Shown here: positions 18,747-44,091 of the stretch, piece after piece
Layout: each line of letters opens with the position of its first letter
Numbering within the stretch: position 1 is the first letter of the stretch
Source of the DNA: a candidate division CSSED10-310 bacterium
GTDB lineage: Bacteria > CSSED10-310 > JAFGJC01
Assembly (NCBI GenBank): GCA_016927905.1
Contig: JAFGLW010000030.1
Location: forward strand, 1-64,000
DNA: 64,000 nt
Direction of reading: 5' to 3'
Program-made: the position numbers and the translations under genes
Notes under the pieces: generated by a model
Told to the model about the DNA's origin: nothing
Databases searched by the model: none
Seen by the model: only the letters and a program-made list of their open reading frames with translations

Positions 18747-21473
18747 TCAATTAACGGGCTCGAGAAGGTCTTTCGCCGGAGCCGCTTCCGAAAAGGAATA
18801 CTCCCCGAAATTCTCAAAAGATGAAACCATAAACAGGTCCGGGCTGTCGTAAATGCCGGATCCGGGGATTCCGGTTCGCTGGATTGAACCCGGGCCGCCG
18901 TTGCCGGCGAAGACGGACCAGTCGACGGTCAGCGATTCGTATTCTTCCCGCGTCACTTCATCCGGTCCCTCCCACCAGCCCCGGAAACCCATGGACAGGG
19001 AAGACGTGGGCAGCGTCAGCTTGCTGAGATCGTAGGTTGCATCCGTGGATCCGATACCGGTGCCGTTGTGCCAGCAGATTGCATCCCGGACCCGGCCCTC
19101 GGTATTCCGCAGCACGACGCAATCTTCCAGAGACGACAGACCGATCACTGCGCGGGATGTAATATGCAAACCATATCCGGTCGCCGCAACCGTTTCCGCA
19201 CCGAAATACCCCACCAGCTCGATCACGGCAATCTGATGCGGACCCAGTATGGCGTCATGATCAACAACGAACGGAATATCATAGCCGTCCAGGTCGCCGA
19301 TCGTCCATCCGCGCAGATTTACGGTGATATCCGTTTCCAGATTGGCGATCTCGACCTTGTCTCCGGCTGTCCCGGTGGTCTCGATGTCCGGTTTCACTTC
19401 CGTGATGACCAGGTCCCCGTCGTCCCCTGTTTCCGGGAGATCGAACATTCCGGAACACGGCATGAGATTCCATCCGGTCAGCGTGTAGGGAACCGGAGTG
19501 ACAATGTCGGACATGTGCAGGCGGCATCCGCCTCCGCTGTCCGTCACGTAGACTCTGGATTCGGTGTCTTTCAAAAAACTCACTTGCGCGTTCGCGACCT
19601 TGTTGCCGTGTTCATCGATGACGACCATGCCTTCCGAACCGGAATCGGGCGGCCAGGCATTGAACACCAGTGCGTTCCGGGGAACTCCGGTGCGCCACCA
19701 CAGATCGGGATTCCCGAACAGGAGATATTCCCGCATGTGAGTGGGAATGTCGTTGGTCATGTACTGGGTTCCGATGAAATGCTCATACGCATAGAATTTG
19801 CCGTAGTTGAACGCGGGGGAAGAGCGCGTGATGTCGTGGTAGCAGAAACCACGGTATATACCCCGGTCGATCCAGTTGTTGATGGTGGTGCGCGTGTTCC
19901 AGGTCGGACCCATGAACGCCACAGCGCCGTGAAGATCCTGAAGGGTTCCGTGAGTCATCCAGGCATGCCCGAAACATTCCGTATACCCGTCGAACATTGA
20001 CACGCCGCATCCGATGGAAGTGATGACCGGGAAATAAGGCCCGTTATGCAGCGCAAAAACCTCGGGATATTCAAAATCGTAGGAATGACCGGGATGCCAG
20101 CCGGCCTGCCAGCCTTCACCCCGGTAGTTGATTATGGTCACACCCCGATTGATCCAGCTCTGTACCTGCGCGACCGATCCGCTGGTCCAGTTGTACATCG
20201 TGTGGATCTGCTCATATGCCAGATTCGTAGTCAGCCGATCCGCCGTCTGTTCCTTGGTGAGCTGCTGGCTTGCATACAACCCGGAACAGGCCATCAGGGC
20301 GGACTTGTAATATTCGTCATACCCGTCGGGAGGCGTCTGTTCATAATACAGGATCCTGGACAGCATCACCGTCAGTTCGTCCGGATCGGTTGCCGGGTAC
20401 CGGGACAGGAAAACATCCGGGAAATAATCCCCGCCCTCCAGCTGGGAATAATACAGATCATCGTCGAAATTACCCGACATGTAATTGTCGTGCGATTCGT
20501 GAATGGGGAAATTGTTGGTGCTCCCGATGATACTGGCATACACCATCCGACTTTCGCTCTGATACATGTTCAAAAAAGCGTTTTTGACGTCGGTATAAGT
20601 CGGGCTTGTTCCCAGTTCCGAAAGACGGACCACATCGATCACGAAACCCTGCTGTTCCTTCCAGGCGAAGAAACCCTGGCACCGGGCTTCAAATTCGTCC
20701 GGCATGATGAAAAAGTAATGCTCCGGAATATTCCGGTCCCGGTCACCAATCCATCGATCTGAATAATTTGGGGCGACGGCCCGGTAGAGAGACTCCCATG
20801 TCGCAGAATAGGGGCCGTGCGACTCAATCGTGTTTCCAGTCGGCCGATCGATCATCCGGATCACGATTTCAGCTCTGTCGGCTATGTCGACGGTGTTCTG
20901 AACGGCGTTGTACTGCACCGGATAATATCCCACCGGCTTCAGCCGGATTTCCCGCATGGCAACCGGGTCCTCCGTGACGATCCGGTTTGCGGGATACCAT
21001 TGATCCAGCGCATACAGGTTCTGGTCCAGCGCTCGGATCCTCGAAACATCCTCCAATTCCAGATCCATCTGATACGGGACCACCGGATAGGCCAGTTGCT
21101 CCCGGTGGGATTCGAGTATGCGGACCGAGACCTCCGGATCCAATGTGTCCGAGACATGTACCAATTTTCCGATCATGGGAAGTACCGGCCGGCCAGGCGA
21201 CATCGTGCTGCCCGCCTCACCGATCCCGATCGTCGTGTAAGTCTCATCGCCGATCCGCCGGGTGCCGATCTGAAGGTCCGTAATCCGGATGCTCAACACC
21301 ACTTCGCGGTCCAGATCGTTGGTCACGGTTTCAATAATGAATCCCTCATCTGTACCAAAACGGGACAGTTTCGCCTCATCGTCAAATCCCAAACCGGTTG
21401 ATGCCGCTAATGCCATACAGACGATCAGGCCGATTCGAACCGTTCGGATTAAACTGTTGTTTTGCAAGGTCAT
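18747..21473 (-). CDS. Secreted C25 (gingipain-like) peptidase homologue with lamin-tail domain
   Basis: The 908-residue protein has a signal peptide (IGLIVCMALAASTGLG), a propeptide-like beta domain, a C25 caspase-fold domain around residues 240-560 (YFFIMPDEFEARCQGFFAWK, YSQLEGGDYFPDVFLSRYP), and a C-terminal lamin-tail domain (DLVITEVKPDI to FAGNGGPGSIQRTG). The catalytic cysteine is present in TSIGCGVSMF, but the usual GHG with the catalytic histidine reads YRGEGW. It may be inactive or use another residue, such as the histidine in HPGHSY. It is a clear paralogue of the protein at 29823-32408. The ATG at 21473 follows AAGGAG. Confidence 0.8.
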   Translation of the reverse strand: MTLQNNSLIRTVRIGLIVCMALAASTGLGFDDEAKLSRFGTDEGFIIETVTNDLDREVVLSIRITDLQIGTRRIGDETYTTIGIGEAGSTMSPGRPVLPMIGKLVHVSDTLDPEVSVRILESHREQLAYPVVPYQMDLELEDVSRIRALDQNLYALDQWYPANRIVTEDPVAMREIRLKPVGYYPVQYNAVQNTVDIADRAEIVIRMIDRPTGNTIESHGPYSATWESLYRAVAPNYSDRWIGDRDRNIPEHYFFIMPDEFEARCQGFFAWKEQQGFVIDVVRLSELGTSPTYTDVKNAFLNMYQSESRMVYASIIGSTNNFPIHESHDNYMSGNFDDDLYYSQLEGGDYFPDVFLSRYPATDPDELTVMLSRILYYEQTPPDGYDEYYKSALMACSGLYASQQLTKEQTADRLTTNLAYEQIHTMYNWTSGSVAQVQSWINRGVTIINYRGEGWQAGWHPGHSYDFEYPEVFALHNGPYFPVITSIGCGVSMFDGYTECFGHAWMTHGTLQDLHGAVAFMGPTWNTRTTINNWIDRGIYRGFCYHDITRSSPAFNYGKFYAYEHFIGTQYMTNDIPTHMREYLLFGNPDLWWRTGVPRNALVFNAWPPDSGSEGMVVIDEHGNKVANAQVSFLKDTESRVYVTDSGGGCRLHMSDIVTPVPYTLTGWNLMPCSGMFDLPETGDDGDLVITEVKPDIETTGTAGDKVEIANLETDITVNLRGWTIGDLDGYDIPFVVDHDAILGPHQIAVIELVGYFGAETVAATGYGLHITSRAVIGLSSLEDCVVLRNTEGRVRDAICWHNGTGIGSTDATYDLSKLTLPTSSLSMGFRGWWEGPDEVTREEYESLTVDWSVFAGNGGPGSIQRTGIPGSGIYDSPDLFMVSSFENFGEYSFSEAAPAKDLLEPVN

Positions 21474-21634
21474 GCAGATTATTGCTCCTTGGGTTGTCGA
21501 ACATACTGACCCGACCAGGCAACCTGCCGCCGGGCAGATCGAACCGGTCATTCAGGGATTGCCCCTCATCCACCGAAGAGAAAAGCTGCAAGAACAATGC
21601 CGAAATACCACTCGGATTGGATCAAACAATTGGA

Positions 21635-26472: not shown

Positions 26473-28476
26473 ATGAATTCTGGAAATTCACTCGAACAGG
26501 ATCAACATTCCGGTCACATCCGATGGAAGGAACTCTGTGTGGTCTGTGCGGTTCTGGCGGCGTTCCTGATTCTCATGCTGATGAGTCAGTCTAGGATATC
26601 CTGGACCATCGATGAAATGAGGTGGATCAATGCCGGCCGGAATGTGATGCGAGACGGTTGGAGCGATCATCCGGATGAACTCTGCCATCCGGTCTTATTC
26701 ATGCTCAGCCAGGCAGCCAGCCGGGCGTGGTTTTCGGATGGCAGTCAGGATTCGGACGTGACGTCCGCCCGGATGGGAATGCTTCCCTACGTCATTGCGG
26801 GCCTGTTGATCCTCTTTTTCTGGAGCCGCTCAATCAACGGGTTTGCGGGCGGCCTGTTCAGTCTGCTGCTACTGGCGTTTTCACCGACTTTCCTGGCGCA
26901 TGCCAGGCTGGCCACTTCGGATGCCATGCTCTCGACGGCGGTGCTGGCTGCGGCTGCCGCCTTTGCGCTGCAGTTTAAAAAACCATCCGGAACCGGCGGT
27001 CTGCTGCTCTCAGCTGCATTCGCATTCGGATTTCTGAGCAAGTTTTCGTTTATCCTCGTCCCGGTTCTCCTGCTGCCGGCGGTCCTTTTCAGATCCCGTC
27101 GTCCGGTCCGGGCGCTGGTTACATCATGGATTCTTCCTCTGGCTGCCGGATTGTTGGTTTTGAACGCGGTATACGGATTCCAGGGAACCGGCAGGCCGCT
27201 CATCTCGTTCCGACTCGTTTCCGGGGCGTTTCAGAAATTGTCTGCAACCTGGCTGGGGCTTCTGCCGCTGCCCTTGCCGGAACGCTATATCCGGGGGATG
27301 GATAATCACCTGGCGTTCGCGGGGTCCTGGCCATCCTATCTTTTCGGATCGGTATCCGTGACCGGATTTCCCGGTTACGACCTGATCGCATGGGCCGTCA
27401 AAACCACGCTTCCGGCACTGATTCTGATTTTGACCGGACTCATATTCCTGAAACGCCTGAAACCTTCCGTGGACGAACGGATTGTGATATACATTGCCGC
27501 AGGCTGGCTGCTGTATTTCTCTTTCATTCACCGGGTGGACTGCGGCGTCCGTTATATTCTGCCGGTTTACCCGCTCCTGTTTCTGATCGCCGGGCGGACG
27601 GCACGGATCCCCGGTAAAGGATTCACCCGCGGGGTCTTCTGGGGATCGGCACTCATCGTCGTGCATGGAGTCATCACCCTGGCCCGGTATCCTTTTTACA
27701 TCGGTTATTTCAATGAACTGGCCGGAGGGAGGGGAGATCTTGTTCTGGGAGATTCCAATCTGTCCTGGACACAGGAATTGAAGGAACTGGCCCGGTATCA
27801 GAGGGAGCATGCGATCGACCGGTTCATATTCGGGATCGAAGTGCCGCTGGCCGTTCTGGATCCTTACATCCGCTACCGCCCGATTTCGCACCGGGAAAAA
27901 TATGTTCCGGGTTCGGGCGATTATGCGGTCTGGATCGCCTCCCTTCAATCGCTGCTGCACCGGGATCCGAATGCATTCCTATGGTTCCGCCTGCTCGAAC
28001 CGGATGCCGTCATCGGTGATGCGGCATACGTATACCACGTGGATCTGGAACCTGGACGGGAATTGGCTTTTTTCCGGGAAGCGGTCCGGTCGAACCGGAA
28101 GAACGGATTCAGGTTCCCGGGCGCAGAATCCTGTCTGGACAACCAGGACGGCATGCTGTTTTTCCCATTAACAGGACTCCCGGAAAACGAGAATTGGGAG
28201 GAAATCGAACTCCAGACCCATGATGCGCCACCCTCCCGGCTGATCACCATGAATCCCCCTGTTTCCGGTTCGGAAATTTCAGTGTGCGGTTACCGTGGTG
28301 ATGAGAGAATCGAAACATTCCTTATGGATGTCGAACTGGCCGGTCAGTCGGTTTTTTACCTGCCCGTAACCGATGAAATCACCAGACTGATCGTACAAAA
28401 ACAACCGACTGGTCCGGCTCCCGAAACCATTTCGCTTGCTTACGAACTGGAATCGAGGTCCGGGTTAGCGGAATGA
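26473..28476 (+). CDS. Membrane glycosyltransferase, PMT/ArnT (GT39-like) family
   Basis: The 667-residue protein has an N-terminal helix followed by the acidic first-loop motif SWTIDEMRWI typical of PMT/ArnT enzymes, then about ten more helices with GFLSKFSFILVPVLLLP and CGVRYILPVYPLLFLIAGR. A soluble C-terminal region of about 230 residues follows (GDLVLGDSNLSWTQELKELA onward), as in other members. It would move a sugar from polyprenyl phosphate to a protein or lipid on the outer face of the inner membrane. The 3' end overlaps the convergent gene at 28465 by 12 bases. Confidence 0.8.
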   Translation: MNSGNSLEQDQHSGHIRWKELCVVCAVLAAFLILMLMSQSRISWTIDEMRWINAGRNVMRDGWSDHPDELCHPVLFMLSQAASRAWFSDGSQDSDVTSARMGMLPYVIAGLLILFFWSRSINGFAGGLFSLLLLAFSPTFLAHARLATSDAMLSTAVLAAAAAFALQFKKPSGTGGLLLSAAFAFGFLSKFSFILVPVLLLPAVLFRSRRPVRALVTSWILPLAAGLLVLNAVYGFQGTGRPLISFRLVSGAFQKLSATWLGLLPLPLPERYIRGMDNHLAFAGSWPSYLFGSVSVTGFPGYDLIAWAVKTTLPALILILTGLIFLKRLKPSVDERIVIYIAAGWLLYFSFIHRVDCGVRYILPVYPLLFLIAGRTARIPGKGFTRGVFWGSALIVVHGVITLARYPFYIGYFNELAGGRGDLVLGDSNLSWTQELKELARYQREHAIDRFIFGIEVPLAVLDPYIRYRPISHREKYVPGSGDYAVWIASLQSLLHRDPNAFLWFRLLEPDAVIGDAAYVYHVDLEPGRELAFFREAVRSNRKNGFRFPGAESCLDNQDGMLFFPLTGLPENENWEEIELQTHDAPPSRLITMNPPVSGSEISVCGYRGDERIETFLMDVELAGQSVFYLPVTDEITRLIVQKQPTGPAPETISLAYELESRSGLAE

Positions 28477-29826
28477 CCATTCCACGGCGGCGACATTGCC
28501 GGCCAGGTCCGTGAAGGACCAGTTTACAACCGCGGCGATGAATTGCAGACCGGAACCCGATACCCCGGTTTCGGGCCATGTAAACGGCTGGAAGATGACC
28601 AGGACGTTCGTTCCGGTGGCGAGATCCCGGCATGAGAAATCCAGGTCGGCGTCGCCGGAAGGCTCGAATCGGCACCATGACGGCCAGAAATAATAATCTC
28701 CGAAGGCCTCCAGCAGGACGAATACCGGCAGATCCGCCAGGGGAACTCCACCATTGCGGACAATCAGGTCCAGGTAGAAAGGATCACTCCCGGCAAAATG
28801 GGTTGCCGGCAAATCCAGCTCTACATCGATATCGAAGTTACCCTCCGGAAGATTGAAATCGACCCCGGTCGTCGGCTGTTGAGTTGAAACCTCAACCAAA
28901 ATGGCATTTCCGGTTTCGCTGCCGGATGGGTAGTACTGCCGGGACCAACCGCATCCTTTGACCGGTACGGCTTCCAGATAGTAGGATCCGGATGGAAGTC
29001 CGAAAGCCAGATATGATCCGTCGATTCCGGAAACCGCCTGGTGGATCGGCTGGAGTTTCCAATCCGGGGAATACAGCCGCACCTCGCATTCGGTAAGGAT
29101 GTCTCCGGTGTTCCGGTAGACGGTTCCCGTAACAGCGCCACCCGGTGGAAGTTGGAAATGAATGCCGGTGATTTCCTGGCGGGGATAGACCGCTACAAAT
29201 GCGGCATCTTCACGGTAATAGGCATCCTGCCAGTAACGCTGCTGGCATCCGTGTCCGGTGTCCGGATCGGAGCGGATGAAGTAGTTGCCTGCCGGCAGAG
29301 GGCCCAGATAATAGCTGCCGTCGCTGCGGCTTCGACAGGAATAGGCTGTGATCCAGCTCCAATCCTGGGAGTAAACATCCAGATCGACACCGTTCAGCGG
29401 AGCGCCTTCCAGGGTCCGGATGGTTCCCAGAACATAGCCGCCCGGTTGAAGGTCGAAATCGATGCCGGAGACGTCGATACCATCTTCAAGTTCAACCGGA
29501 ACGGCGGTTCCCCGGTCCCGGCTGTCGAACCAGTATTCGGGGACATAGGGCATGGGATAGGAGCTGTGGGCGCGGAGATAATATCGTCCGGCATCGAGAC
29601 CTCCGGTCACGTATCTGCCGTCCGGATCCGATCGAGTGGAAGCGTCCGAAAGGAAATTCCAGTCCGCGTCGAATACCCAGATGTCGATCCCGCCGGCACC
29701 TGAGCCTGTGTCCGTATCGGTTATCATGCCCAGGATATGTGCGGACCGGTTTCCCGATCCGGTGACGGCAGGATTGTTCAGGCTGAGGACTGCCGACAGG
29801 ATGAATATCAAACGCCGTGTCATCAT
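28465..29826 (-). CDS. Secreted repeat protein: three carboxypeptidase-regulatory-like repeats plus C-terminal FWPSW domain
   Basis: A signal peptide (RRLIFILSAVLSL) is followed by three repeats of about 100 residues with a prealbumin-like fold. Each runs from a GxVxGTV-type strand through DGSYYLGPLPAGNYFI to a GIDFDLxxGG turn. The last 115 or so residues form a domain also found at the ends of the proteins at 32428 and 35701, with the hallmark EAFGDYYFWPSW. It is probably a cell-surface or extracellular scaffold. It starts inside the stop codon of the upstream C25 gene (ATGA overlap), so the two are coupled. Confidence 0.75.
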   Translation of the reverse strand: MMTRRLIFILSAVLSLNNPAVTGSGNRSAHILGMITDTDTGSGAGGIDIWVFDADWNFLSDASTRSDPDGRYVTGGLDAGRYYLRAHSSYPMPYVPEYWFDSRDRGTAVPVELEDGIDVSGIDFDLQPGGYVLGTIRTLEGAPLNGVDLDVYSQDWSWITAYSCRSRSDGSYYLGPLPAGNYFIRSDPDTGHGCQQRYWQDAYYREDAAFVAVYPRQEITGIHFQLPPGGAVTGTVYRNTGDILTECEVRLYSPDWKLQPIHQAVSGIDGSYLAFGLPSGSYYLEAVPVKGCGWSRQYYPSGSETGNAILVEVSTQQPTTGVDFNLPEGNFDIDVELDLPATHFAGSDPFYLDLIVRNGGVPLADLPVFVLLEAFGDYYFWPSWCRFEPSGDADLDFSCRDLATGTNVLVIFQPFTWPETGVSGSGLQFIAAVVNWSFTDLAGNVAAVEWSFR

Positions 29827-32408
29827 TGTGATCTGACCGCCGTCTCCTCGCCGCCGCTGTGCTGGTAGGATCCGAATCCCGGTTCCGACTGAACAGTGAA
29901 ATTTCCGGATCCGTCGGGTGAGCCGGTCCAGGCGCGATGTATTGATCCTTCCCCGCCGTTCCCGGCGAAGGGCGACCAGTTCACGGTGAAGTTTTCATAG
30001 GTGGATTGATCGATGGCGTCGGGTCCGTCCCACCATCCGCCGGGGAGAATTTCGAACGGGGTTGTGGGGGCGGTCAGGCGGGAGAGATCGCCGGCCACGT
30101 TGGTTGATCCGGTACCGGTCTGATCGTGCCAGGCCAGGCAGTCGACGATCCTGCCGAGGGGATCCCTCAGGACCACGATGTCTTCCAGGCTGGAAAAATC
30201 AGGAATCTCGCGGGAAATGATCTTCAAACCATAGGGCATGGGAATGATTTCTTCATCATATCGGGGACCGGCGAACACGATGACGGCAATCTGCTGGGGC
30301 TGTAACAGCGCCGGCATGTCCACAAACGGGGTATCATAGCCGTCCAGGTCTGAAAGCGTCCATCCGTTCAAATCGATGGGGGAGGTGTCCAGGTTGTAAA
30401 GCTCCACCATGTCCCCTTCGCCGTTTTCCGTCGGGATGTCCGGTTTGATCTCGGTGATCAGCATGCTTCCGGTCGTCCCGCCGCTGTTCCAGGGAAGATC
30501 CACATCGACCGGAATAAGGTTTTTCCCCGCGATGACAACGCGTACGCTGTTCGAGGGCACCTGAGTCAGATCTATGGGCACTCCTCCGCTTTCGTCGACC
30601 GGATAGACTCTTCGGATTCCGTTGGCGGCCCAGGAGATGGTGGCGGCGTCGATGAGACTTCCCAGTTCATTCCGGGCGACCACATAACGGTCCATGGAAT
30701 CGTTGTCATAACCGAGACCGGCGATGGATTGCAAAGGCAGCCCGGTGCGGATCCACATGTCAGGTGTCCCGAAAACCAGGTAGGTTCGGAAGTGCACATC
30801 GATAAAGGCATCGTGTCCGGGATCGGGGAAATTGTCCCACATGTACATTTTCCCATAATTCATGGCCTGCCCGACCCGGTAGGTGTTCCAGTAGACATAC
30901 CCACGGTAGAAACCCCGGTCGAGCCAGTTGTTGTAGGTTGTGTGGGTGTTCCAGGTCGGGCCCACGATCCCGACCGATCCCAGAGGAACCGAAACCGATC
31001 CGTGAGCCATCATGGCATGACCCCAGCAGTCATCGAGGTCGGCGAACATGTTGACGCCGCATCCGATGGACGTTACAAACGGCGTCATATGCGCATTGTG
31101 GAGGGTATAGACATCGTCATAATCAAACCAGTATTCATGATCCGGATTCCAGCCTCTCCGCCAGCCTTCACCCCGGTAATTGATGATGGACACACCCTGA
31201 TCGATCGTCGCGATCAGGTTATCCACCGTAAATGCATTCCATTCATAAAAGGTATGAACCGTTTCATACCCGCAATATGTTTCCAGTCGTTCCCGGGTCT
31301 GTTCCTTGGTATCGATCTGACTCTGTTCCAGTGAGGAAGCGGCCATAAGGGCTGTTGTGTAAAACGCCGGATTTTCCAGCCGGGGTGCCAGTTCGTACTC
31401 GAGGATCTTGGAAAGCATGATGGTGAGTTCCAGCCCGTTTTTAACCGGCAGGCGACCCAGGAAAACATCCGGAAGGATGTCTTCACCGGCCAGGAGCGAA
31501 TAATACAGGTCATCTACGTAATCTCCCGGATGCGTCGTATCGTAGGAATAATAAAGCGGCGTGGTATACTGGTCGCCGCAGATCAGAACGTACACCGGTG
31601 GATGCGGTCCGTAAAAATAATTCAGGATGGCCTGCCTGAGCTGGGCCGGAGTCGGCGCAGACGGCAACGCGGACATACGCAGCAGGTCCACCCGATATCC
31701 TTCCTCTTCTTTCCAGGCAATGAATCCCTGCAGCCTGGACTCGTATTCATCGGGTGTCACAATCAGGTAATACTCCGGCTCTCCGAATTCATCAGTCAGT
31801 TTCGGCTGGTAATTGATAACCGCGGCCCGGTAAAGCGTATCGAAGGAATGCGTAATCGGCGGCAGCTTCAATGGAACGGGCCGGTCCGGGGATTCATCTG
31901 CAAATATCCGTATCCGGGCCTTTTCCAGCACCAGGATTTCCCCGGTCGCCGGATCCCAAAGATAAGGAAGGACGGTCAATCGCGCCACATGAATGCTTCG
32001 AAATATCTGTCTGGATCCGAGCGAGATCCTGAATCCGGGATCCGTCATCCCGGGACCGGCCACCTCCGGGATCCACTCCAATTCCCGAACCGGGTCGCCT
32101 TTCAAATCCGGAATCAGATGGTTCACCGTTGTCCGGCGAATCCGCTCGAGCTCCAATTCGACGGACATTTCGGTATCGGGGGAGATCTGGATGAGTCTGG
32201 AGATTACCGGCAACGGGGGAATGGTCGATTCCGTATCCAGTTCGAGCAGAATTTCCCGGTGGATGTCATTTCGAAGCAACCTGAAAGTTGCATCGGATTC
32301 GATCGGGTCCGTCATTCCGCCAGAAGCTGCTGGCAGGCAAAAAAACAGGCACATCAAAAGGCGAGCGCCCGGCAGGTTCTTGAAAATCGGCAGGCCGGTA
32401 TGGGGCAT
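29823..32408 (-). CDS. Secreted C25 (gingipain-like) peptidase homologue with lamin-tail domain, second copy
   Basis: The 861-residue protein has a signal peptide (GARLLMCLFFCLPAASG), a beta-rich propeptide region, a C25 domain (YLIVTPDEYESRLQGFIAWK, DILPDVFLGRLP) and a C-terminal lamin-tail domain (SMLITEIKPDI to FAGNGGEGSIHRAW). It is a paralogue of 18747-21473. The active-site cysteine is kept in TSIGCGVNMF, but the catalytic-histidine motif GHG reads NYRGEGW, as in the other copy. The ATG at 32408 follows AGGAG by six bases. It lies in a minus-strand run with an M14-like protein upstream and a repeat protein downstream. Confidence 0.8.
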   Translation of the reverse strand: MPHTGLPIFKNLPGARLLMCLFFCLPAASGGMTDPIESDATFRLLRNDIHREILLELDTESTIPPLPVISRLIQISPDTEMSVELELERIRRTTVNHLIPDLKGDPVRELEWIPEVAGPGMTDPGFRISLGSRQIFRSIHVARLTVLPYLWDPATGEILVLEKARIRIFADESPDRPVPLKLPPITHSFDTLYRAAVINYQPKLTDEFGEPEYYLIVTPDEYESRLQGFIAWKEEEGYRVDLLRMSALPSAPTPAQLRQAILNYFYGPHPPVYVLICGDQYTTPLYYSYDTTHPGDYVDDLYYSLLAGEDILPDVFLGRLPVKNGLELTIMLSKILEYELAPRLENPAFYTTALMAASSLEQSQIDTKEQTRERLETYCGYETVHTFYEWNAFTVDNLIATIDQGVSIINYRGEGWRRGWNPDHEYWFDYDDVYTLHNAHMTPFVTSIGCGVNMFADLDDCWGHAMMAHGSVSVPLGSVGIVGPTWNTHTTYNNWLDRGFYRGYVYWNTYRVGQAMNYGKMYMWDNFPDPGHDAFIDVHFRTYLVFGTPDMWIRTGLPLQSIAGLGYDNDSMDRYVVARNELGSLIDAATISWAANGIRRVYPVDESGGVPIDLTQVPSNSVRVVIAGKNLIPVDVDLPWNSGGTTGSMLITEIKPDIPTENGEGDMVELYNLDTSPIDLNGWTLSDLDGYDTPFVDMPALLQPQQIAVIVFAGPRYDEEIIPMPYGLKIISREIPDFSSLEDIVVLRDPLGRIVDCLAWHDQTGTGSTNVAGDLSRLTAPTTPFEILPGGWWDGPDAIDQSTYENFTVNWSPFAGNGGEGSIHRAWTGSPDGSGNFTVQSEPGFGSYQHSGGEETAVRSQ

Positions 32409-32427
32409 GAATCGCTCCTTTGCACTC

Positions 32428-35400
32428 CTAATATCCGAATTCAACCACGCTGATATCTCCAACGAGCTGGGTGGTTCCGGGCGCCAGGCAGCCGGCATAG
32501 AAATACAGACCGCTGGCATGTCCTCCTACCACCGGCCAGATGAAATCAAAGATCGGGGTGGTTTCGTGGTAGCCATCGGGATAGGAGTGGTTTTCATAAT
32601 CCAGGGTCTCGGACCAGGACGGCCAGAAGAAATACACGCCGTACACGTCCAGAATGATGTACTGCTCCACCGTCACGGTCGGTCCGTTGCGTTCGATTTC
32701 ACACTGGAACAGGAAATCCTCCCCGGCCTCAAAATAAGTGTCGTTCAGATGCAGGGTGATGGCAAAGTAATCCGCCGGTCGGGTGGGTGTTGAAGTCGGC
32801 ATGCCTGGTTGGGTTTCAGTCGGTTTGGGGGTGAAGGTCACTTCCGGGGTGCGGGTCGGCAGAGGGGTGTTGGACGGTTGACCGGGAAGTGTGGGGGTGG
32901 GTGTCGGTGCGGTGGGAGTGGGTGTCGATGAGGGGGGAACCAAAGTGGGCGTATGCGTCGGGGTTATGGGTGTGTTGGTGGGTTCTCCGGGAGCCGTTGT
33001 GGGCGTTGCGGATGGGGTGGGGGTATTGGTCGGAGGCGTGGGTGTATGGGAGGGGATGGGCGTGCTGCTGGGGATGCTGGATGGTGTGGATGTCGGCCGG
33101 ATTGTGGGAGTGGGAGGCGGGGGAACCGATCCGTAATAATTTCCGCAGATCTTGAAATCGTCGACATAAAATCCGGGTTCGTTGAACGCACTGTCCGCAC
33201 GGACATCGAACCGGATCTCCACACTGGGTTCACCGTCCGCATAAGATGAGATGTCCATCTCCACATACGCCCAGCTGGAATCGTTACTCCAGCCGGAATC
33301 GCCCGTGCTGAATATCGTCGTCCAGCTTCCTCCCGCTTCGTTCCGGATCCGGACCCGTCCGTAATCGTAATTGTAGGGGTATTCCACCTGAAGGAACCTG
33401 GCGAAGAACATACTCGTTTCTGACAGGTCGGTGCAATCGATGGGAGGTGTGGTCAGGGTGAGGGTCCAGCCATTGTCATAATTTCCGTCCAGCCCGGTCC
33501 CATAAACGTAGGATCCGGTATAAGCTCCCGACGGTCCGACAACCGGAATACCGAATTCCCAGTTGTTGTAAGGACCTGGAAACGGCTGTCCGGGATTGGT
33601 CAGATATGCATCGATTTCCCAGCCGGGATCGGAATCCATTGTCTGTTCGTAATACGGGCACAGATACACGTAAGTCTGGACCGACAAGGTCAGCTGGTCG
33701 ACGTTCGTGCACAATTCCTGATCCGCATCGAAGGTGATGGTCAGAATGGCGACATGGCCTTCCGGAGTGGCGCTGCTCGCTGAAACACTGAACGAATTCC
33801 CTTCCGACCATGCCGCTCCCCCTCCCGGCAGATCCGGCCAAGTGGCGCTGTTGTCGATCACGGTGATATAAGGATCCGATGTGGACAACACTCCGCTGAT
33901 CCCCGTCACCGGCAGGCTGGGAGCCAGGAGGCAGACCTGCAGGATCGCCTGTTCCCCGGGATCCAGATTCCCGTCTCCATCACCGGTGGCCGAATCGTTC
34001 ACGAAACTGGCCCAGATCTGCAGACCGGGTTCGGTGAGCGGTATCATCTCAACATCCATCGGGATGGGTGAACTGCTGAACGATACCGGTACGTTTCGTT
34101 CCACGTACCCCTCCGCGAGAAATGTCAGGGTCAGAGGGCCGGTCTTGCCGATGCACTCATACCGGCCGGTTGCCGGATCATTCCTTTTCAGGCTTTCATT
34201 CAAGCCCGGCGGATATTCAGAGAAAAAGAAATAGGCCGATATCGGCTGACCGGTGCAGGCATCGGTGACATGTCCATAAATGACGTTTCCGTCCTCGAAC
34301 AGATTGAGAACCTTCTGCCATCCCGGGCGGTTCCGCTCCACCGTAGTGTTCCGGACGGTATAACTCGGATAATAGCTTTCTGCATTGACCTGAATGGCGT
34401 AGGCCAGGCATCCCTTTTCAGCATAGAAATAATCCGTTTCGTTCCCGTCGGTCTGATAGAGCAGTTCCCACCACGTTCCCAACGGGTAGCCGTAGCTGCC
34501 GTTTTCCTTCCGGATTGCGGTGGCGAAGGTGCTGCCGAATGACCGGAGAATATCTTTCTCAGCCGCCGTGTCATTCTGGCAGCCGTATGGAAACAGAACG
34601 AACTCATTGAAACTGTGATAGGAGAGAATCGCCGCGAAGCGGTGTTCTTCCGCCAACGATATCACCGCCTGTATCTCGGGTTCGGATGCCGGCGTCGTTC
34701 CCCGGAAATAATTGGAGTTCGGATCGGATGAGGACCCGAAACAGGCTCCCCAGTTGAACGGGTAATTGTGAGCCAGGTTTACGCCGTATACGCCTCCGCC
34801 CAGATCCCGCCGGTTCTTGATCCAGTATTGATCGGTCGACCAGCAGTAGGCGGAGCCGTCCGGGTTGAGCATGGGGATGATCCATATCTGCCAGGTATTC
34901 ACCCAGTCGGTCACATCGGGATTGGATCCGTAGTTGTTGGCCAGGTATGCGACGATGTCCATGGTGATCTCGGTGGCCATGATTTCCCTGGCCTGGTGGA
35001 GTCCGATGAACAGAATACTCGGTTCATCCTCGTTTACCGAAACGTTGTCGGATATTTTCATGGCCCAGATGTGTCGACTCTCGAACGTCGTGGCAAGGTC
35101 AACCCGTCTCATATAGGAAGGATGCGCCGATTCATATCCCGCCAGCATCGATGTGACTTCGGAGTAATCCAGATACTGTGAATCAATCCGGTCTTCGCGG
35201 CCGGTCTCGGAGCGGTTTTCAACCGTCCAGTAAACACCCGCCATGCGCAAGATCTCCAGGCCCTGTTCGCTGATCCGGATTCGAGCCGTTTTCCGGTCAT
35301 GATCCAGACCGATCAGGTCCAGATGGTCCCGATCCCGCAGCTCCATCCCCGACGATACCTCCAGATAATCATTTAAGGGCAGTTGGATAATGGTCCGGCT

Positions 35401-35466
35401 GCCCAGACACAGTGCCGGTATGAAAACGGCAAGGAAAACGGTTCCGATCGCCAGTCTATTTCTCAT
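32428..35466 (-). CDS. Secreted M14 carboxypeptidase-like protein with P/T-rich linker and FWPSW domain, likely inactive
   Basis: Order: signal peptide, a short pro-region, an M14 zinc-carboxypeptidase fold (about residues 110-400), a regulatory-like beta domain (VIYGHVTDACTGQPISAYFF), a jelly-roll-type domain (CPYYEQTMDSDPGWEIDAYL to GFYVDDFKICG), a proline/threonine-rich linker and a C-terminal FWPSW domain (LDVYGVYFFWPSW). M14 residues compared: the zinc motif is LHQARE (usual HxRE/HHARE), the second zinc histidine SYHSFNE is kept, the substrate N-R pair is VNLAHN (usual DLNRN), and the catalytic glutamate region AIQVNAE has Gln. Several required residues are therefore missing. The ATG at 35466 follows GAGG by eight bases. 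Confidence 0.78.
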   Translation of the reverse strand: MRNRLAIGTVFLAVFIPALCLGSRTIIQLPLNDYLEVSSGMELRDRDHLDLIGLDHDRKTARIRISEQGLEILRMAGVYWTVENRSETGREDRIDSQYLDYSEVTSMLAGYESAHPSYMRRVDLATTFESRHIWAMKISDNVSVNEDEPSILFIGLHQAREIMATEITMDIVAYLANNYGSNPDVTDWVNTWQIWIIPMLNPDGSAYCWSTDQYWIKNRRDLGGGVYGVNLAHNYPFNWGACFGSSSDPNSNYFRGTTPASEPEIQAVISLAEEHRFAAILSYHSFNEFVLFPYGCQNDTAAEKDILRSFGSTFATAIRKENGSYGYPLGTWWELLYQTDGNETDYFYAEKGCLAYAIQVNAESYYPSYTVRNTTVERNRPGWQKVLNLFEDGNVIYGHVTDACTGQPISAYFFFSEYPPGLNESLKRNDPATGRYECIGKTGPLTLTFLAEGYVERNVPVSFSSSPIPMDVEMIPLTEPGLQIWASFVNDSATGDGDGNLDPGEQAILQVCLLAPSLPVTGISGVLSTSDPYITVIDNSATWPDLPGGGAAWSEGNSFSVSASSATPEGHVAILTITFDADQELCTNVDQLTLSVQTYVYLCPYYEQTMDSDPGWEIDAYLTNPGQPFPGPYNNWEFGIPVVGPSGAYTGSYVYGTGLDGNYDNGWTLTLTTPPIDCTDLSETSMFFARFLQVEYPYNYDYGRVRIRNEAGGSWTTIFSTGDSGWSNDSSWAYVEMDISSYADGEPSVEIRFDVRADSAFNEPGFYVDDFKICGNYYGSVPPPPTPTIRPTSTPSSIPSSTPIPSHTPTPPTNTPTPSATPTTAPGEPTNTPITPTHTPTLVPPSSTPTPTAPTPTPTLPGQPSNTPLPTRTPEVTFTPKPTETQPGMPTSTPTRPADYFAITLHLNDTYFEAGEDFLFQCEIERNGPTVTVEQYIILDVYGVYFFWPSWSETLDYENHSYPDGYHETTPIFDFIWPVVGGHASGLYFYAGCLAPGTTQLVGDISVVEFGY
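32783..33129 (-). repeat. Low-complexity DNA encoding a proline/threonine-rich linker
   Basis: About 115 codons of the M14-like gene are nearly all Pro, Thr and Ser in PTxTPT-type units. The plus strand here is a G/T-rich tract (gtgggtgtcggtg-like). It forms a flexible spacer between the folded domains and is prone to length variation. Confidence 0.85.
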
Positions 35467-35700
35467 TGATGAATCCTCATTCTCCAGATCGAAATTAGGA
35501 ATCCTCCCGGGCGAACATACGGGTTCACCCGCCACTGGATTCGGTTTTTGCAAAAACAGTGCCCAAATAGCAGGACCTTCGTTCCGGTTCCCTGGCCCTC
35601 AGGATGGACTACAAGGGTGTATTGATATGAGTCACCTGTCTTGTTACGGTCGATCTGGTGCCGGACCGGCTGGAAATGCAGGGTGTTCGGAACCCGGGGA

Positions 35701-37983
35701 TCAGGGGGATCCGTACCCGAAGGTCACGACGTCCATTTCACCCACCAGAGCGGAGAAATCTTCAGTGACCAGAGCTCCGTAAAAAATCAGGCCGGTTACA
35801 TCGGGCCCCTGGATATCGGGCCAGTTGAACGCCTGAAGAATGGGGATGATCTGAACACCCGAAACGAACTCGATCATGCTGTAATCGATATCGGTATGAT
35901 AAGGCGGTTTATACAGGGTCCAGCTCGGCCAGAAAAACAGTTGACCGTAGACATCCAGGATCACGAACAGAGGAAGGCTGCCCATGGATTGTCCGGGATT
36001 ACTCAAACGGGCGTTCAGGTAGAACAGATCACCCGGATAAAACATCTCGGCGGGAATCTCCAGTTGCACCCCGAACGATACGGCCGGGGTGGGAGTGGGT
36101 TTTCCGGGCATCAGGGTGAAATTGATGCCGGCGGTTGTCGCACCCTCCGCCACATTAACCACAATGGCTCCGGAAGGTGATGACGCTTCAGAATAGTATT
36201 CCTCATAATAACCGGATGCCGGAAGCGGAACGGCTTTCACATAATAGTTGCCAGTGGGCATTCCGAAGGCGGTGTACATCCCGTCGCTCTTGGATTGCTC
36301 GGGACGGAGCGGAAGCAGATTCCACTGGGGTGAATACACTTCAACGGTGACATCGGGAACCGGTATTCCCTGAATCTGGTCGGTGATCCGGCCGGTAATT
36401 TTCCCGCCCTGGATCAGGGCGAAATCAAGACCGAAAACATCGGCCGTATCGGTCAGGTGGATCAGAACCGCGTTCTGCTGCCAGAAGACATCATCATAAA
36501 ACTCCGGGATATATCCCTGGCTCAGATAGGGGTTGCAGTGCAGATAATAGCCGCCGAATGGCAGCGCTCCGATTGTAAACTCCCCCCGGGTATCGGTATG
36601 ATCGCTGTAGTCGAGAAATGACCATTGTCCGTCGTATAGGTCCATGTCCACACTGTACACCGCATTTCCGGACAGCTGGTCCGTTACGGTGCCCAGAAGA
36701 TAGCCGCCTTTTTCCAGCGCGAAATCAATCCCGGTGGTTTCCGCATCCAGAATGATCTCCACAGCCGTCGCATCCCCCCCGCTGACCGCATCGTCATAAT
36801 ACTCGTCAATATATGGCTGCGGGTAGACCGGAACGGCCTTGACATAATACATCCCGGGTTTCAAAGCACCGGAAAGGTAATCTCCGGATGATTTAGTCAG
36901 GCAGGTGGCGAATTCGTAAAATAGCCAGTCGGAACCGTAAAATTTCATCTTGATGTCTGCCAGCGGATTGGCCTGCATGTCGGTGACATTTCCCCGGATA
37001 TAGGAACCGGCCGGCAGTGCGAAGTCGATTCCATCGGACGGTTTCGGCGGCGAGATGGTCACGGGCTGGGCGTCCGAAGTCTGAAACGCGGAAGCGTAAA
37101 ACATGTCCATATATCCGTCCGGGTAGGTGGGATCGGCCAGAATCGTGTAATCTCCGCTCGGGTATGCCCCCAGAACATACGTCCCGTCGGATTTGGTGCG
37201 GGCTGAGATACGCATTTTCTGCCCGCTGGAATTATATGCTTTCATGGAGATATCCGGGACCGGCGCTTGAGTAACGGAATCCTTGACGGTGCCCGTGATG
37301 TAGGATCCATCCGCGAGATCGAAATCGATCCCGAAGGTGTCGTCGGGAGCCGTGATGGTGACCAGTGTGGCATTCACGGGTCCGTTGGAGTGATCCCAGT
37401 ACTGATCGACATACGGCTGGGCATAGATCGGATTGGCCATGACATAATACTGGCCTTCCGGCAATGCACCGACATAATATCTTCCCGTTTCTGAACCGGC
37501 ATCCACGTCCATCTTGACCCAGTCGGGATCGTAGACGTTCAGATCGATGCCATCCAGACCCAATCCGCCGGCATCCAGAATTTTTCCTCCGATGTAATAC
37601 CCGACGGTAAGCTGAAAATCGATGCCGGTGACATCTTGGCCGTCCGCCACCGGAACCGGAATCGCGCCGGCGCGGCTGAAGGAATCAGCCCAGTATTCGG
37701 CTCGATAGTGAAAATCCCATTTCGGGTTGGCCTTCACATAATATGAACCGGCAGTAACATTGTAAAAAGTGTAATATCCGCTGTCCGATGTCGCATCGAT
37801 GTGGACATAGTTCCAGCCGGCATCATACAAATTCAGATCCAGTCCGGAAACGGGCTGTCCGGAAACTTCGTCCGTAATGAATCCGGAAATGGATCCGGCA
37901 TGCCCGCATGTTGCGGAAAACAGTATCCAGCATACCAGCGGCAGGCTCGGCAATCCAAATCTTCTCAGCTTCTTGAATATCAT
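35701..37983 (-). CDS. Secreted repeat protein: six carboxypeptidase-regulatory-like repeats plus C-terminal FWPSW domain
   Basis: The 760-residue protein has a signal peptide (LPLVCWILFSATCGHAG) and six tandem repeats of about 100 residues. Each begins like GGYLLGTVTDQLSG, contains a DGxYxxGALPxGxYYVKAxP core and a PYxDEYYDD segment, and ends with GIDFALxxGG. The C-terminal ~115-residue domain has LDVYGQLFFWPSW and ends with VGEMDVVTFGYG, matching the end of the M14-like protein (VGDISVVEFGY). The repeats are prealbumin-like folds found in adhesins and transport accessory proteins. The ATG at 37983 follows GGGAGA. Confidence 0.75.
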   Translation of the reverse strand: MIFKKLRRFGLPSLPLVCWILFSATCGHAGSISGFITDEVSGQPVSGLDLNLYDAGWNYVHIDATSDSGYYTFYNVTAGSYYVKANPKWDFHYRAEYWADSFSRAGAIPVPVADGQDVTGIDFQLTVGYYIGGKILDAGGLGLDGIDLNVYDPDWVKMDVDAGSETGRYYVGALPEGQYYVMANPIYAQPYVDQYWDHSNGPVNATLVTITAPDDTFGIDFDLADGSYITGTVKDSVTQAPVPDISMKAYNSSGQKMRISARTKSDGTYVLGAYPSGDYTILADPTYPDGYMDMFYASAFQTSDAQPVTISPPKPSDGIDFALPAGSYIRGNVTDMQANPLADIKMKFYGSDWLFYEFATCLTKSSGDYLSGALKPGMYYVKAVPVYPQPYIDEYYDDAVSGGDATAVEIILDAETTGIDFALEKGGYLLGTVTDQLSGNAVYSVDMDLYDGQWSFLDYSDHTDTRGEFTIGALPFGGYYLHCNPYLSQGYIPEFYDDVFWQQNAVLIHLTDTADVFGLDFALIQGGKITGRITDQIQGIPVPDVTVEVYSPQWNLLPLRPEQSKSDGMYTAFGMPTGNYYVKAVPLPASGYYEEYYSEASSPSGAIVVNVAEGATTAGINFTLMPGKPTPTPAVSFGVQLEIPAEMFYPGDLFYLNARLSNPGQSMGSLPLFVILDVYGQLFFWPSWTLYKPPYHTDIDYSMIEFVSGVQIIPILQAFNWPDIQGPDVTGLIFYGALVTEDFSALVGEMDVVTFGYGSP

Positions 37984-38255
37984 TGCTTCTCTCCCAATCG
38001 GTCCAAAACTCTTCCGGGTCGAACACAACCCGTCTCTTCACGATTTATTCCAATTGCATGCCAAATCCCCTGATCGGGGAAAAATAGTCGCAAAAACGGG
38101 ATTTTACGATCCGATCCGTCCTGTTTCGAACCATGAATCGGCAGGATCGAGCGCCGTCCCCGGATCGGTGAAACAGCGGTATCCGGTGCGATGGGGTTGT
38201 GAGGTGATGGCATTACCTTTGCACAAGTTCCCGTCGGGGAGGGTGTACCGCAGGG

Positions 38256-40661
38256 ATGCAATTGGCCGTTTTCCCGGGAAATGGATTGTCGAATTCAGTC
38301 ATACCGCCTGTTCTGGTCGGTCTGGGATTGTCGACCGTTTTCACCGAGACACTGGGGTGGAATTTCAGCGGATTGATCGTACCGGGATATCTGGCACCCA
38401 TCTTCATCGTCAAACCTCTGAGCGGGGTGGTGATCATCATCGAGGCGTTTATTTCCTACGTCATTCTCCGCCTGCTTTCGGATGGATTCTCGCGATTCGG
38501 GATCTGGACCCGGTTTTTCGGACAGGACGCATTTTTTGCCTTGTTCTGCATCAGTATTCTTGTCAAATGCCTTCTGGAAGGCCCGTTTCTGCCGGTGATG
38601 GGGGATATCTTCGTTCAGATATTTCACAACTCGGTCGACTACCGGAACGAACTGCATTCCACCGGTTTGATCGTCGTGCCGCTCATGGCGAACATATTCT
38701 GGCGGCACGGCATCCGGCGAAATATCGTTCCCATCTCCACCGTCATCCTGCTCACTTATCTTTTTACGCGATTCGTCCTGATTCCCTACACCAATTTCTC
38801 GGTGAACCAGTTTGAACTGATGTACTCGAAGATGGCGCTGAATTTTGAAGCTAGCCCGATATTTTACTTCATTCTGATCATCGGCGCGTTCATGGCGTCA
38901 CACAACAAATATCGATTCGGCTGGTCGTATCATGGAATGCTGATTCCAGCGCTTCTGGGTATCGCATGGCTGACACCGCTGAAAATACTGACCACATTCA
39001 CTGAAGCCGGTTTGATACTTTTGATCGGTTGGTATCTGGTTCGAAGACGGTTCATGCAGAACATGACCGTTGAAGGTCCCCGGAAATTACTTTTTCTGTT
39101 CGGGATCGGATTTGCCCTGAAAATGGGACTCGGCTTTACGCTAGCCGATATGTACCCGGGATTTCAGGCAAGCGATCTTTACGGTTTCGCCTACATTCTT
39201 CCCGCCCTGCTGGCGATGGAAATGTGGCCGGGCAGGTATTACCTGAAGGTGGCCCGTGTGACCGTCCAGACGTCGTTTCTGGCGGCCGTGCTGGGCATGG
39301 CGACATGCCTTGCGTTCCAGGTTTTCCTGCCGCATACGTTCATTCAACAGTCGGATCAGCCGGTATCGGAGTTGTCGATTCAACCGGCGGATGCGGTTGT
39401 CCGGACGGAAGGGGGACTGGGATTATGGATCGCCGATACCGTGAAACCGGAATTGACCTGGGGTGCAGATCATCGACCGATCAAGGTAAGCCGTCTGTCC
39501 CAGTTCGACCGGCACGTCCTAACTCCGGTCGTCCGGGCCCTGGGGCGATCCGGCGAACTTCCCGTGACTTCCAAAATGGAACAGGTCCTGCACCAGTCCG
39601 GCTATTCAATAATCGATATGGAAAACGGCATGACCCGGGACAGATACTGGATATTTACGGAAACGGACCGCTCAGGCGGATACCATGGCACTTATATCTT
39701 CAGACAGGGCCGGGCATCCCCGCGGGTGATCCAGGTTCCCAATCCATTATCGGAAACCAATACCCTGGAGGTCGGTCTGGAATTGTTCCACGATCTGAAT
39801 GCCCGTGCACTGTTTATTTCCGGAACCAGCCGGCGGAAGCTGGTTGCGGAGTTCGATGTGACACATCTGGAATCGAGGATCAGCATGTTTCAACTGATGC
39901 ACCAGGTGATCCATCGGGAGATGGTTGAGACCGATCCGGTTCTCTCGATACAGATCAGGGGTGTGGCGGATCTGACAATCCCCGGGATCGATGCGGTGAT
40001 TAGTTCCGGAGAAGAAATTCGGGATCCTGCCGACCAGAAACCGGAACTGGTCGAACTGAAATCACAACTTGTCTCCCTGGGCATGACCGTCCGGGATTTC
40101 AGCGGGATTCCGGACGATATGCAATACAGTTCGCGGTCCATCGCCCAGCATGCCTATGTACGCGATTTCAATATGGGAGTATTCGCCGTTTTGTGGATTT
40201 CACCGGAATTCAGAAAAAACTACGAATCCCCCGAACTCAAACCGGAGATGACGGCGGCGCTGGGGTGGGTTTCCGGGGAAGGTGACCTGAGGGAGCGGAT
40301 TATGCGGGCGGAGCTGGCCGCCGATTCAGCTCCGACCGGTCTGTTGACGATTCGGGATGCCATCGGGCGGGAGCTGGCCGGGTATGCCCGCTCCGGGCAC
40401 ATCGGACATCTGTGGAATATCGCATCTCTGGCGGATGGCCAGGGTTACGCGATCGAGGTTTTTCTCGATTCGTCCCGGAATGTTCCGTTCCTTTGTCTGC
40501 AGCATCCCGAACCGGATCGACCCCTTTTTGTCTTCAATTTCAACATGCATTCTCCGGAACCGATCACGATCGAAATCCCGTCAGACTCCTCTGAAACCCG
40601 GTTGAATGAGTTCGTATTCAGCCGATCCGTATCCCTTACAGCGATAGGAGTAAGTTCATGA
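38256..40661 (+). CDS. Double PgsC/CapC membrane protein fused to an inactive hydrolase-like periplasmic domain
   Basis: Residues about 14-195 match the whole of B. subtilis PgsC (FTETLGWNFSGLIVPGYLAP and STGLIVVPLMANIFWRHG correspond to PgsC FTERTGILPAGLVVPGYLAL and GIGVIVPGLIANTIQRQG). Residues about 200-370 are a second CapC-like unit (SYHGMLIPALLGIAWLTPLK). PgsC is the membrane partner of the poly-gamma-glutamate synthase PgsB. From about residue 410 a periplasmic domain is homologous to the product of 43126-44091, but its likely catalytic H positions are N, R and V. It is the first gene of a six-gene operon, overlapping the next by ATGA. The only upstream ribosome-binding candidate is a GGGGAGG about 13 bases before the ATG. 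Confidence 0.82.
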   Translation: MQLAVFPGNGLSNSVIPPVLVGLGLSTVFTETLGWNFSGLIVPGYLAPIFIVKPLSGVVIIIEAFISYVILRLLSDGFSRFGIWTRFFGQDAFFALFCISILVKCLLEGPFLPVMGDIFVQIFHNSVDYRNELHSTGLIVVPLMANIFWRHGIRRNIVPISTVILLTYLFTRFVLIPYTNFSVNQFELMYSKMALNFEASPIFYFILIIGAFMASHNKYRFGWSYHGMLIPALLGIAWLTPLKILTTFTEAGLILLIGWYLVRRRFMQNMTVEGPRKLLFLFGIGFALKMGLGFTLADMYPGFQASDLYGFAYILPALLAMEMWPGRYYLKVARVTVQTSFLAAVLGMATCLAFQVFLPHTFIQQSDQPVSELSIQPADAVVRTEGGLGLWIADTVKPELTWGADHRPIKVSRLSQFDRHVLTPVVRALGRSGELPVTSKMEQVLHQSGYSIIDMENGMTRDRYWIFTETDRSGGYHGTYIFRQGRASPRVIQVPNPLSETNTLEVGLELFHDLNARALFISGTSRRKLVAEFDVTHLESRISMFQLMHQVIHREMVETDPVLSIQIRGVADLTIPGIDAVISSGEEIRDPADQKPELVELKSQLVSLGMTVRDFSGIPDDMQYSSRSIAQHAYVRDFNMGVFAVLWISPEFRKNYESPELKPEMTAALGWVSGEGDLRERIMRAELAADSAPTGLLTIRDAIGRELAGYARSGHIGHLWNIASLADGQGYAIEVFLDSSRNVPFLCLQHPEPDRPLFVFNFNMHSPEPITIEIPSDSSETRLNEFVFSRSVSLTAIGVSS

Positions 40662-43117: not shown

Positions 43118-43125
43118 GTCGTATT

Positions 43126-44091
43126 ATGCAACGGACTGCGGCATATACTGCAATACTGGTTGTGGTTTTAACCACCTGGGCCGTTTCCTCCGCCAACCAT
43201 CGGCCGGAAACCTTGAAGGACCTCTATTATTCTGCGCGGGATCTGGAGGATCAAGATGCGTATCGAGAACCGACTGACCGGGAGTTGAAGGAATTTTCCG
43301 ATCTGATGGATCAGCTGCTTGTCTGCATCCGATCCGGACAAACCGGGCGGATTTCTCAACTGGTCCCGGTTGCGGACGGTCTCGGATTTCAGATCCGGCA
43401 GTCTGTCCGGGGTGCCGGTCGGGAATACACGGTAATCATGGAAAAGGGGAAATTGCGATTCGGCGGGGGATTCTATGCCGTCGCTGAAACCCCGCCGCCG
43501 GTGCGCCCTGCGCTTGTTCAAACACCCCATGCCCGTTCCGATGCATTTACGGGGCGTATCGGTATCCGGGTCGTCCTGAAGACTCGGAGTGCAGCATTCT
43601 TTTCGAGCACCATGCCTCGGGATCGGCTGATCAGCGGAGATCGGGACATCACGGAAATATCCGATCCAGCACACAATGCCAGATCCTTTTTTCAGTGTGC
43701 CACCGAAACTTTCGCCCGGCACAATCCGGATCTGCTGGTTATCCAGCTTCACGGATTCAGGAAAAACGATGAACGGAATTTTGATGCCATTCTTTCGAGC
43801 GGTCAGAGCATATCCAGGCATTCGGAACTGCAATCCCGAATCGCGGAATGCATCCGGGAAAATTTCCGAGACCGGACAATCGCGGTATTCGGCCGGGATA
43901 CCAATGAGCTGGGCGCGCTGACCAACATCCAGGGACGATACATCAACACCAAGACGTCCGGGCTGTTTCTCCATTTGGAAATGGACTGGGAATTCAGAAA
44001 GTCGATTGTGAAGGCCGAACCGATGATGAAACGGTTTACCCGTTGCGTGAATCGCATCATATCCATCTATGAAACGATGCCGGTTAGATAG
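43126..44091 (+). CDS. Putative periplasmic metal-dependent hydrolase (active paralogue of the CapC-fusion domain)
   Basis: A 321-residue secreted protein with a signal peptide (AAYTAILVVVLTTWAVSSA). Conserved polar motifs look catalytic: QTPHARSD, VIQLHGF and LHLEMDWEFRK. The arrangement of scattered His/Glu recalls zinc amidohydrolases such as N-formylglutamate amidohydrolase or the phage poly-gamma-glutamate hydrolase, but I cannot assign a family. Block-by-block similarity to the C-terminal domain of the protein at 38256 is clear, including FDAILSSGQSI versus IDAVISSGEEI. In this operon it could trim or release the polymer. Start is ATG 43126; a TTG at 43114 overlapping the upstream stop is an alternative. 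Confidence 0.65.
   Translation: MQRTAAYTAILVVVLTTWAVSSANHRPETLKDLYYSARDLEDQDAYREPTDRELKEFSDLMDQLLVCIRSGQTGRISQLVPVADGLGFQIRQSVRGAGREYTVIMEKGKLRFGGGFYAVAETPPPVRPALVQTPHARSDAFTGRIGIRVVLKTRSAAFFSSTMPRDRLISGDRDITEISDPAHNARSFFQCATETFARHNPDLLVIQLHGFRKNDERNFDAILSSGQSISRHSELQSRIAECIRENFRDRTIAVFGRDTNELGALTNIQGRYINTKTSGLFLHLEMDWEFRKSIVKAEPMMKRFTRCVNRIISIYETMPVR

Follow-up and report, generated by a model that had tools for sequence, protein, structure and literature searches.

A C-terminal domain on about 100 exported proteins of a CSSED10-310 bacterium, a candidate surface sorting or anchoring signal

Three neighbouring genes in a stretch of 64,000 nucleotides from a candidate division CSSED10-310 bacterium (contig JAFGLW010000030.1, positions 1 to 64,000; hereafter the window) encode exported proteins with different upstream parts and similar ends, which raises the question of what the shared end does. 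Our analysis suggests, with moderate confidence, that it is a C-terminal signal for sorting proteins to the cell surface or anchoring them there, analogous to the C-terminal domain (CTD) of the type IX secretion system (T9SS).

The shared domain and its copies in the genome

The first protein (453 residues, 28465..29826, reverse strand, as are all features of the three genes) was found from its open reading frame (ORF), Pfam matches and signal peptide to consist of a signal peptide, CarboxypepD_reg (transthyretin-like) repeats and the C-terminal domain, which occupies 28465..28848, ends one residue short of the stop codon and has its FWPSW codons at 28675..28689. The second (1041 residues, 32428..35553) combines a signal peptide, an M14 zinc carboxypeptidase, an InhA-like MAM region and a Thr/Pro-rich linker (32788..33120, approximate boundaries read from the sequence), which leads from the catalytic part to a domain that reaches the stop codon (32428..32784; FWPSW codons at 32614..32628). 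The third (775 residues, 35701..38028) was assigned by ORF and Pfam analysis a signal peptide, six CarboxypepD_reg-type repeats and the domain at 35701..36093 (AlphaFold model m2c2a5495d304; FWPSW codons at 35920..35934). All three carry a clear N-terminal signal peptide. Pairwise BLASTP of the C-terminal 130 or so residues gave 31-35% identity with E values of 1e-15, 1e-19 and 1e-27, and because of these values the homology and common origin of the three domains of about 117 residues are, on sequence comparison, not in doubt. The original prediction, made from the letters of the window, that three neighbours share a C-terminal domain behind differing upstream parts is thus borne out; Pfam assigns these parts to CarboxypepD_reg repeats, an M14 peptidase and again CarboxypepD_reg repeats. 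Neither Pfam nor NCBIfam gave a match within the shared ends.

A profile of the three window ends revealed about 100 strong matches in the same genome (G000). For the census in G000 the DNA around the matches was translated in all frames and the profile was iterated; a total of 101 ORFs cover at least 85 of the roughly 117 domain positions and are counted here as full-length copies. The family first described as three proteins is therefore real and far larger than was foreseen. The 101 copies amount to about 4% of genes, on the 2,515 genes reported for Zod_Metabat.419, probably the same metagenome-assembled genome (PMC8248873); the genome measures about 3.1 Mb.

Analysis of domain position revealed a distance of 0-4 residues between domain end and stop codon in 94 of the 101 copies, of at most 10 in 96 and of at most 18 in 97, and tails of 24 and 28 residues past the domain in two copies. 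Occurrence in cytoplasmic proteins, or inside proteins as often as at their ends, had been named as speaking against the prediction; only two copies lie elsewhere than at the C-terminus. Signal peptides were found on nearly all G000 carriers by a heuristic predictor and inspection, and most of the failures could be put down to the ends of contigs, to partial hits, to a frameshift, to two in-frame TGA codons or to signal peptides that the heuristic had missed. A Thr/Pro-rich linker (T, P and S together making up over 50% of the preceding 60 residues) stands before 55 of the 101 copies. A second set consists of 20 high-scoring copies from three further genomes of the same order (G002, G003 and G004); each of the 20 ends at most five residues before the stop codon, in a protein with a signal peptide. 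The expectation that the domain would always be C-terminal on signal-peptide proteins holds for these 20, and as to position for the 94, and fails for two N-terminal copies in G000.

Alignment of 103 copies revealed the residues that define the family. The leucine of LDVYG and the proline of FWPSW are the best conserved (100 copies each), and a second motif, FxWP, is nearly as constant (F 99, W 98, P 101). The asparagine of an NP pair is found in 95 copies and the two columns of a GD pair in 89 and 84, while the closing strand reads hxGxxDxxxFG[WY], with its final F represented by F in 76 copies and by W in 22. FWPSW, proposed as the hallmark, is present in all three window proteins and proved to be only their local spelling: the W column holds W in 47 copies, A in 36 and Y in 16, and variants include FAPSW and FWPSF. 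LDVYG, the proline of FWPSW, FxWP and the closing FG[WY] strand are firmer marks of the family.

The carriers differ widely in what precedes the domain. Pfam analysis of 98 carriers identified C25 gingipain-type peptidases (11), S8 subtilases (10) and C1 papains (6), with single or few M14, M6, M1 and C13 peptidases, a Porphyromonas-type peptidyl-arginine deiminase (PAD_porph), GH18, PGA_cap, FG-GAP, Kelch, beta-helix and other proteins. Judged by these matches, the carriers are extracellular enzymes together with proteins of adhesin-like type, a set similar to the cargo of the T9SS. Two TlpA/ResA-like thioredoxin carriers, L079 (G000:C15:90416-93654) and L102 (G000:C22:177591-181075), contain an in-frame TGA at the first cysteine of CxxC (T-U-GSC), after an intact signal peptide, and are probable selenocysteine proteins. 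An ORF of 200 residues at L111:2797-3396 holds little beyond signal peptide and domain and is a possible minimal carrier. Locus L099 (G000:C21:28555-36178) is a cluster of domain genes with frameshifted or partial copies, in which the signal peptide of one ORF is followed immediately by the domain, while another frame further downstream contains an additional partial copy.

Distribution, fold and database status

Profile searches revealed 111, 92, 90, 78 and 61 matches in five CSSED10-310 genomes of one order (G000 to G004) and none in three CSSED10-310 genomes from other families, including G006 of a sister family. Outside CSSED10-310, 282 genomes were sampled, and diverged matches occur in two of them, G041 (44) and G186 (62), which belong to one family in another phylum. 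These belong to the same family as the CSSED10-310 domain (hhalign probability 99.7%, E 1e-25, over the whole length) and are likewise mostly C-terminal, with at most 16 residues between domain and stop codon in 26 of 31 inspected copies; they differ in their lower conservation and in that some are tandem or N-terminal.

No Pfam model scored above its curated cut-off on the 103 copies, the sole exception being a weak MG4 match (E 0.005) on one copy, and no NCBIfam model matched any of them at E 0.01. A sequence search of PDB with the domain profile gave nothing relevant, viral structures gave nothing specific, plasmid records gave no match, and literature searches found no description of the domain. 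The domain was thus previously unmodelled in Pfam and NCBIfam.

AlphaFold, given a shallow alignment of five sequences, returned all-beta models with mean pLDDT of 86 and 82. The domain is predicted to be an immunoglobulin (Ig)-like beta-sandwich, the last strand of which extends to the end of the chain. Foldseek neighbours are weak (E about 1e-3 to 1e-2, TM-score 0.4-0.6) and indicate fold class only; they comprise CARDB, ML and macroglobulin domains, a porphyran-binding carbohydrate-binding module (CBM), GbpA and RbmA, all within the Ig-like/E-set range. CARDB, E-set/Ig-like domains and beta-sandwich CBMs, the nearest by Foldseek at a TM-score of about 0.5, may have the all-beta sandwich in common with the predicted domain, which has no sequence-profile match in Pfam over cut-off. 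To our knowledge, these domains are not confined to C-termini in known proteins.

A sorting signal and its alternatives

Why should so many proteins share such an end? A sorting or anchoring role is favoured because about 101 copies are fused to unrelated parts, nearly all of them at the stop codon and behind a signal peptide, because the second set and most copies of the other phylum repeat this position, because the cargo is T9SS-like, and because C25 proteins exchange the domain for another C-terminal signal, as described below, while its predicted Ig-like fold resembles that of the solved T9SS CTD (PMC4804311). A carrier would cross the inner membrane through Sec and then fold; a dedicated outer-membrane factor would recognise the C-terminal domain and move the protein to the cell surface or hold it there, with the Thr/Pro-rich linker acting as a spacer. 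The original reading, in which a portable module possibly attaches proteins to the surface or serves in their secretion, is supported by the terminal position, the signal peptides and the varied upstream parts.

Exosortase-type tags, in which a short motif is followed by a transmembrane helix and a basic C-terminus, offer a comparison within the phylum. In G006, which lacks the domain, 15 C25 matches were found, and 9 of 12 complete C25 proteins fetched from it show, by eye, a terminal PxLS/T motif followed by a hydrophobic segment and then basic residues; these tails resemble IPTL-CTERM exosortase substrates, although only one of the nine is called by TIGR04174. The domain is present on 11 of the 16 C25 proteins of G000. 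These sequences support a swap of C-terminal signals, in which one protein class carries either an exosortase-type tail or the domain, and such a swap in turn supports a sorting or anchoring role. IPTL-CTERM, PEP-CTERM, MYXO-CTERM and GlyGly-CTERM tails resemble the domain as C-terminal sorting tags on secreted proteins, and in G006 they sit on the same C25 peptidase class as the domain does in G000; the domain differs from them in being, by prediction, a folded all-beta unit of about 117 residues with no transmembrane helix. TIGR04174 gave no match in G000, a weak zero, as the model is too short to be sensitive. An LPXTG motif with a transmembrane-helix tail was not seen at any of the carrier C-termini listed (sortase genes were not searched). 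A sortase-like partner had been suggested for the domain, and all eight CSSED10-310 genomes do contain an exosortase match (PF09721), with the TIGR04178 signature above cut-off and XrtH as the best model, below its own cut-off; the usual exosortase signal is, however, a different, membrane-spanning tail, and the enzyme also occurs in CSSED10-310 genomes without the domain and is missing from the domain-bearing G041 and G186. The two systems may exist side by side in the phylum, as each of its eight genomes retains the exosortase. The XrtH-like exosortase of G000, of about 186 residues, was located at L185:3950-5208 (G000:C28:357949-359207), beside a conserved membrane-protein neighbour of about 250 residues.

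The closest analogue is the T9SS, whose CTD has a solved structure, a C-terminal Ig-like sandwich in which the last residues are needed for export (PMC4804311). Type A CTDs (TIGR04183/PF18962) and the domain are both Ig-like sandwiches (predicted for the domain) located at the very end of dozens of proteins with signal peptides, and both systems carry C25 gingipain-type peptidases and peptidyl-arginine deiminase; the T9SS CTD has about 72-90 residues against about 117, and the domain's motifs (LDVYG, FWPSW, FxWP, FG[WY]) are different. The likeness invites the explanation that the domain is a remote CTD type of a divergent T9SS, using Sov/SprA, PorV and PorU homologues, and it could draw on the same layout, similar predicted fold and similar cargo (PMC4804311, PMC10202324), on the abundance of C25-family proteins and on a C25-LTD gene that lies inside the cargo operon of the window, with synteny kept in G004. 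Against it, the SprA translocon was found in 0 of 10 target genomes, with no first-look candidate, and in 10 of 10 T9SS control genomes (PorV, PorU and GldLMN/PorLMN were not searched). TIGR04183 is missing from G000, G001, G002, G041 and G186 yet has matches in 121 of 290 genomes; hhalign of the domain against 29 genuine type A CTDs gave a probability of 3%, and no copy has an NCBIfam match. A divergent T9SS is thus largely refuted and highly improbable, and the T9SS-like system suggested earlier as a partner is disfavoured. The T9SS was rejected as host system on the SprA result and the absence of TIGR04183 from G000. As far as sequence comparison reaches, the domain is analogous and not homologous to the T9SS CTD, and SprA is not used. 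TIGR04183 matches without SprA do occur in G004 (eight) and G003 (one), for example at L222; they are possibly bin contamination or the residue of a lost system.

Several observations weigh against a sorting or anchoring signal. In G000, 2 of the 101 copies (L099 and L107) directly follow the N-terminal signal peptide; in the other phylum 3 of 31 do so, and a few more are internal or in tandem. A signal that strictly requires a free C-terminus should not allow such positions, except where genes have been fused. No machinery that would act as a partner was found, and the weak structure matches include carbohydrate-binding and adhesion modules. According to the chief rival, the domain is a non-covalent binding module: carriers would leave by a different pathway, such as type II secretion, and the domain would then stick them to surface polysaccharide, S-layer or matrix, as a CBM or an SLH domain does when tethered by a flexible linker. 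The linker before just over half of the copies matches an enzyme-linker-binding-module layout, the aromatic residues of FWPSW and FxWP are conserved, the porphyran-binding CBM, GbpA, RbmA and CARDB are among the weak fold matches, and a binding module accounts better for N-terminal copies in which the linker follows the domain (L107 reads signal peptide, domain, Thr/Pro-rich linker, propeller). Binding modules usually occur in tandem and at either protein end, however, whereas in 94 of 101 copies the stop codon follows within four residues and the second set of 20 contains no exception, and no carbohydrate-binding Pfam family matches; we regard the binding module as less likely than a sorting or anchoring signal. 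A plainer possibility, an ordinary extracellular Ig-like domain of CARDB or macroglobulin type amplified by duplication with no targeting role, would suit the generic E-set/Ig-like neighbours, the single weak MG4 match and the tandem or internal copies of the other phylum. For a neutral spacer, neither the strict stop-adjacent position on some 100 paralogues with unrelated upstream parts nor the exchange with exosortase-type tails in the sister family would be expected, and we consider this explanation improbable.

Several machines for secretion or anchoring, among them the T9SS, exosortase, rhombosortase and myxosortase, came to light through C-terminal sorting tags. A tag on about 4% of a genome's proteins that is unmodelled, occurs in two phyla and lacks the T9SS translocon points to an unrecognised surface route. 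We tentatively propose that CSSED10-310 and at least one other phylum might possess a T9SS-independent outer-membrane sorting pathway that recognises an Ig-like domain folded at the C-terminus and handles about 100 surface proteins in each genome. As C25 peptidases bear the domain in one family and exosortase-type tails in another, a comparison of the two offers a way to find the machinery, and the domain profile would annotate hundreds of uncharacterised exported proteins together.

The operon of the window

The genes from 38028 to 28465 form one block, in the order domain carrier, M14 carrier, C25-LTD protein without the domain and domain carrier, and the block is conserved in G004 (L228). 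The C25 peptidase-like protein with LTD (29823..32519, reverse strand) contains NYRGEGW and TSIGCGV, and a second C25-like protein with LTD, also without the C-terminal domain and with the same GEG variant, is encoded elsewhere in the window (18747..21551, reverse strand). In all nine aligned members of this group the catalytic His position is Glu (NYRGEGW against GHG of C25 peptidases) and the Cys is kept. Full-length orthologues (above 1000 bits) number two in G000, three in G004, three in G003 and one in G002, while G001 (60% complete), G005 to G007, G041 and G186 have none; that is, four of the five domain-bearing genomes of the order and none of five searched outside it. One may speculate from the sequences that the C25-LTD protein is a PorU-like partner of the domain; it is only a lead, because its catalytic His reads Glu and because it is absent from the domain-bearing other phylum. 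A divergent operon at 38256-53440 opens with a gene for a PgsC/CapC-like membrane protein that has a long additional region fused to it, and continues with large proteins, two of which (819 and 1695 residues) have no Pfam match.

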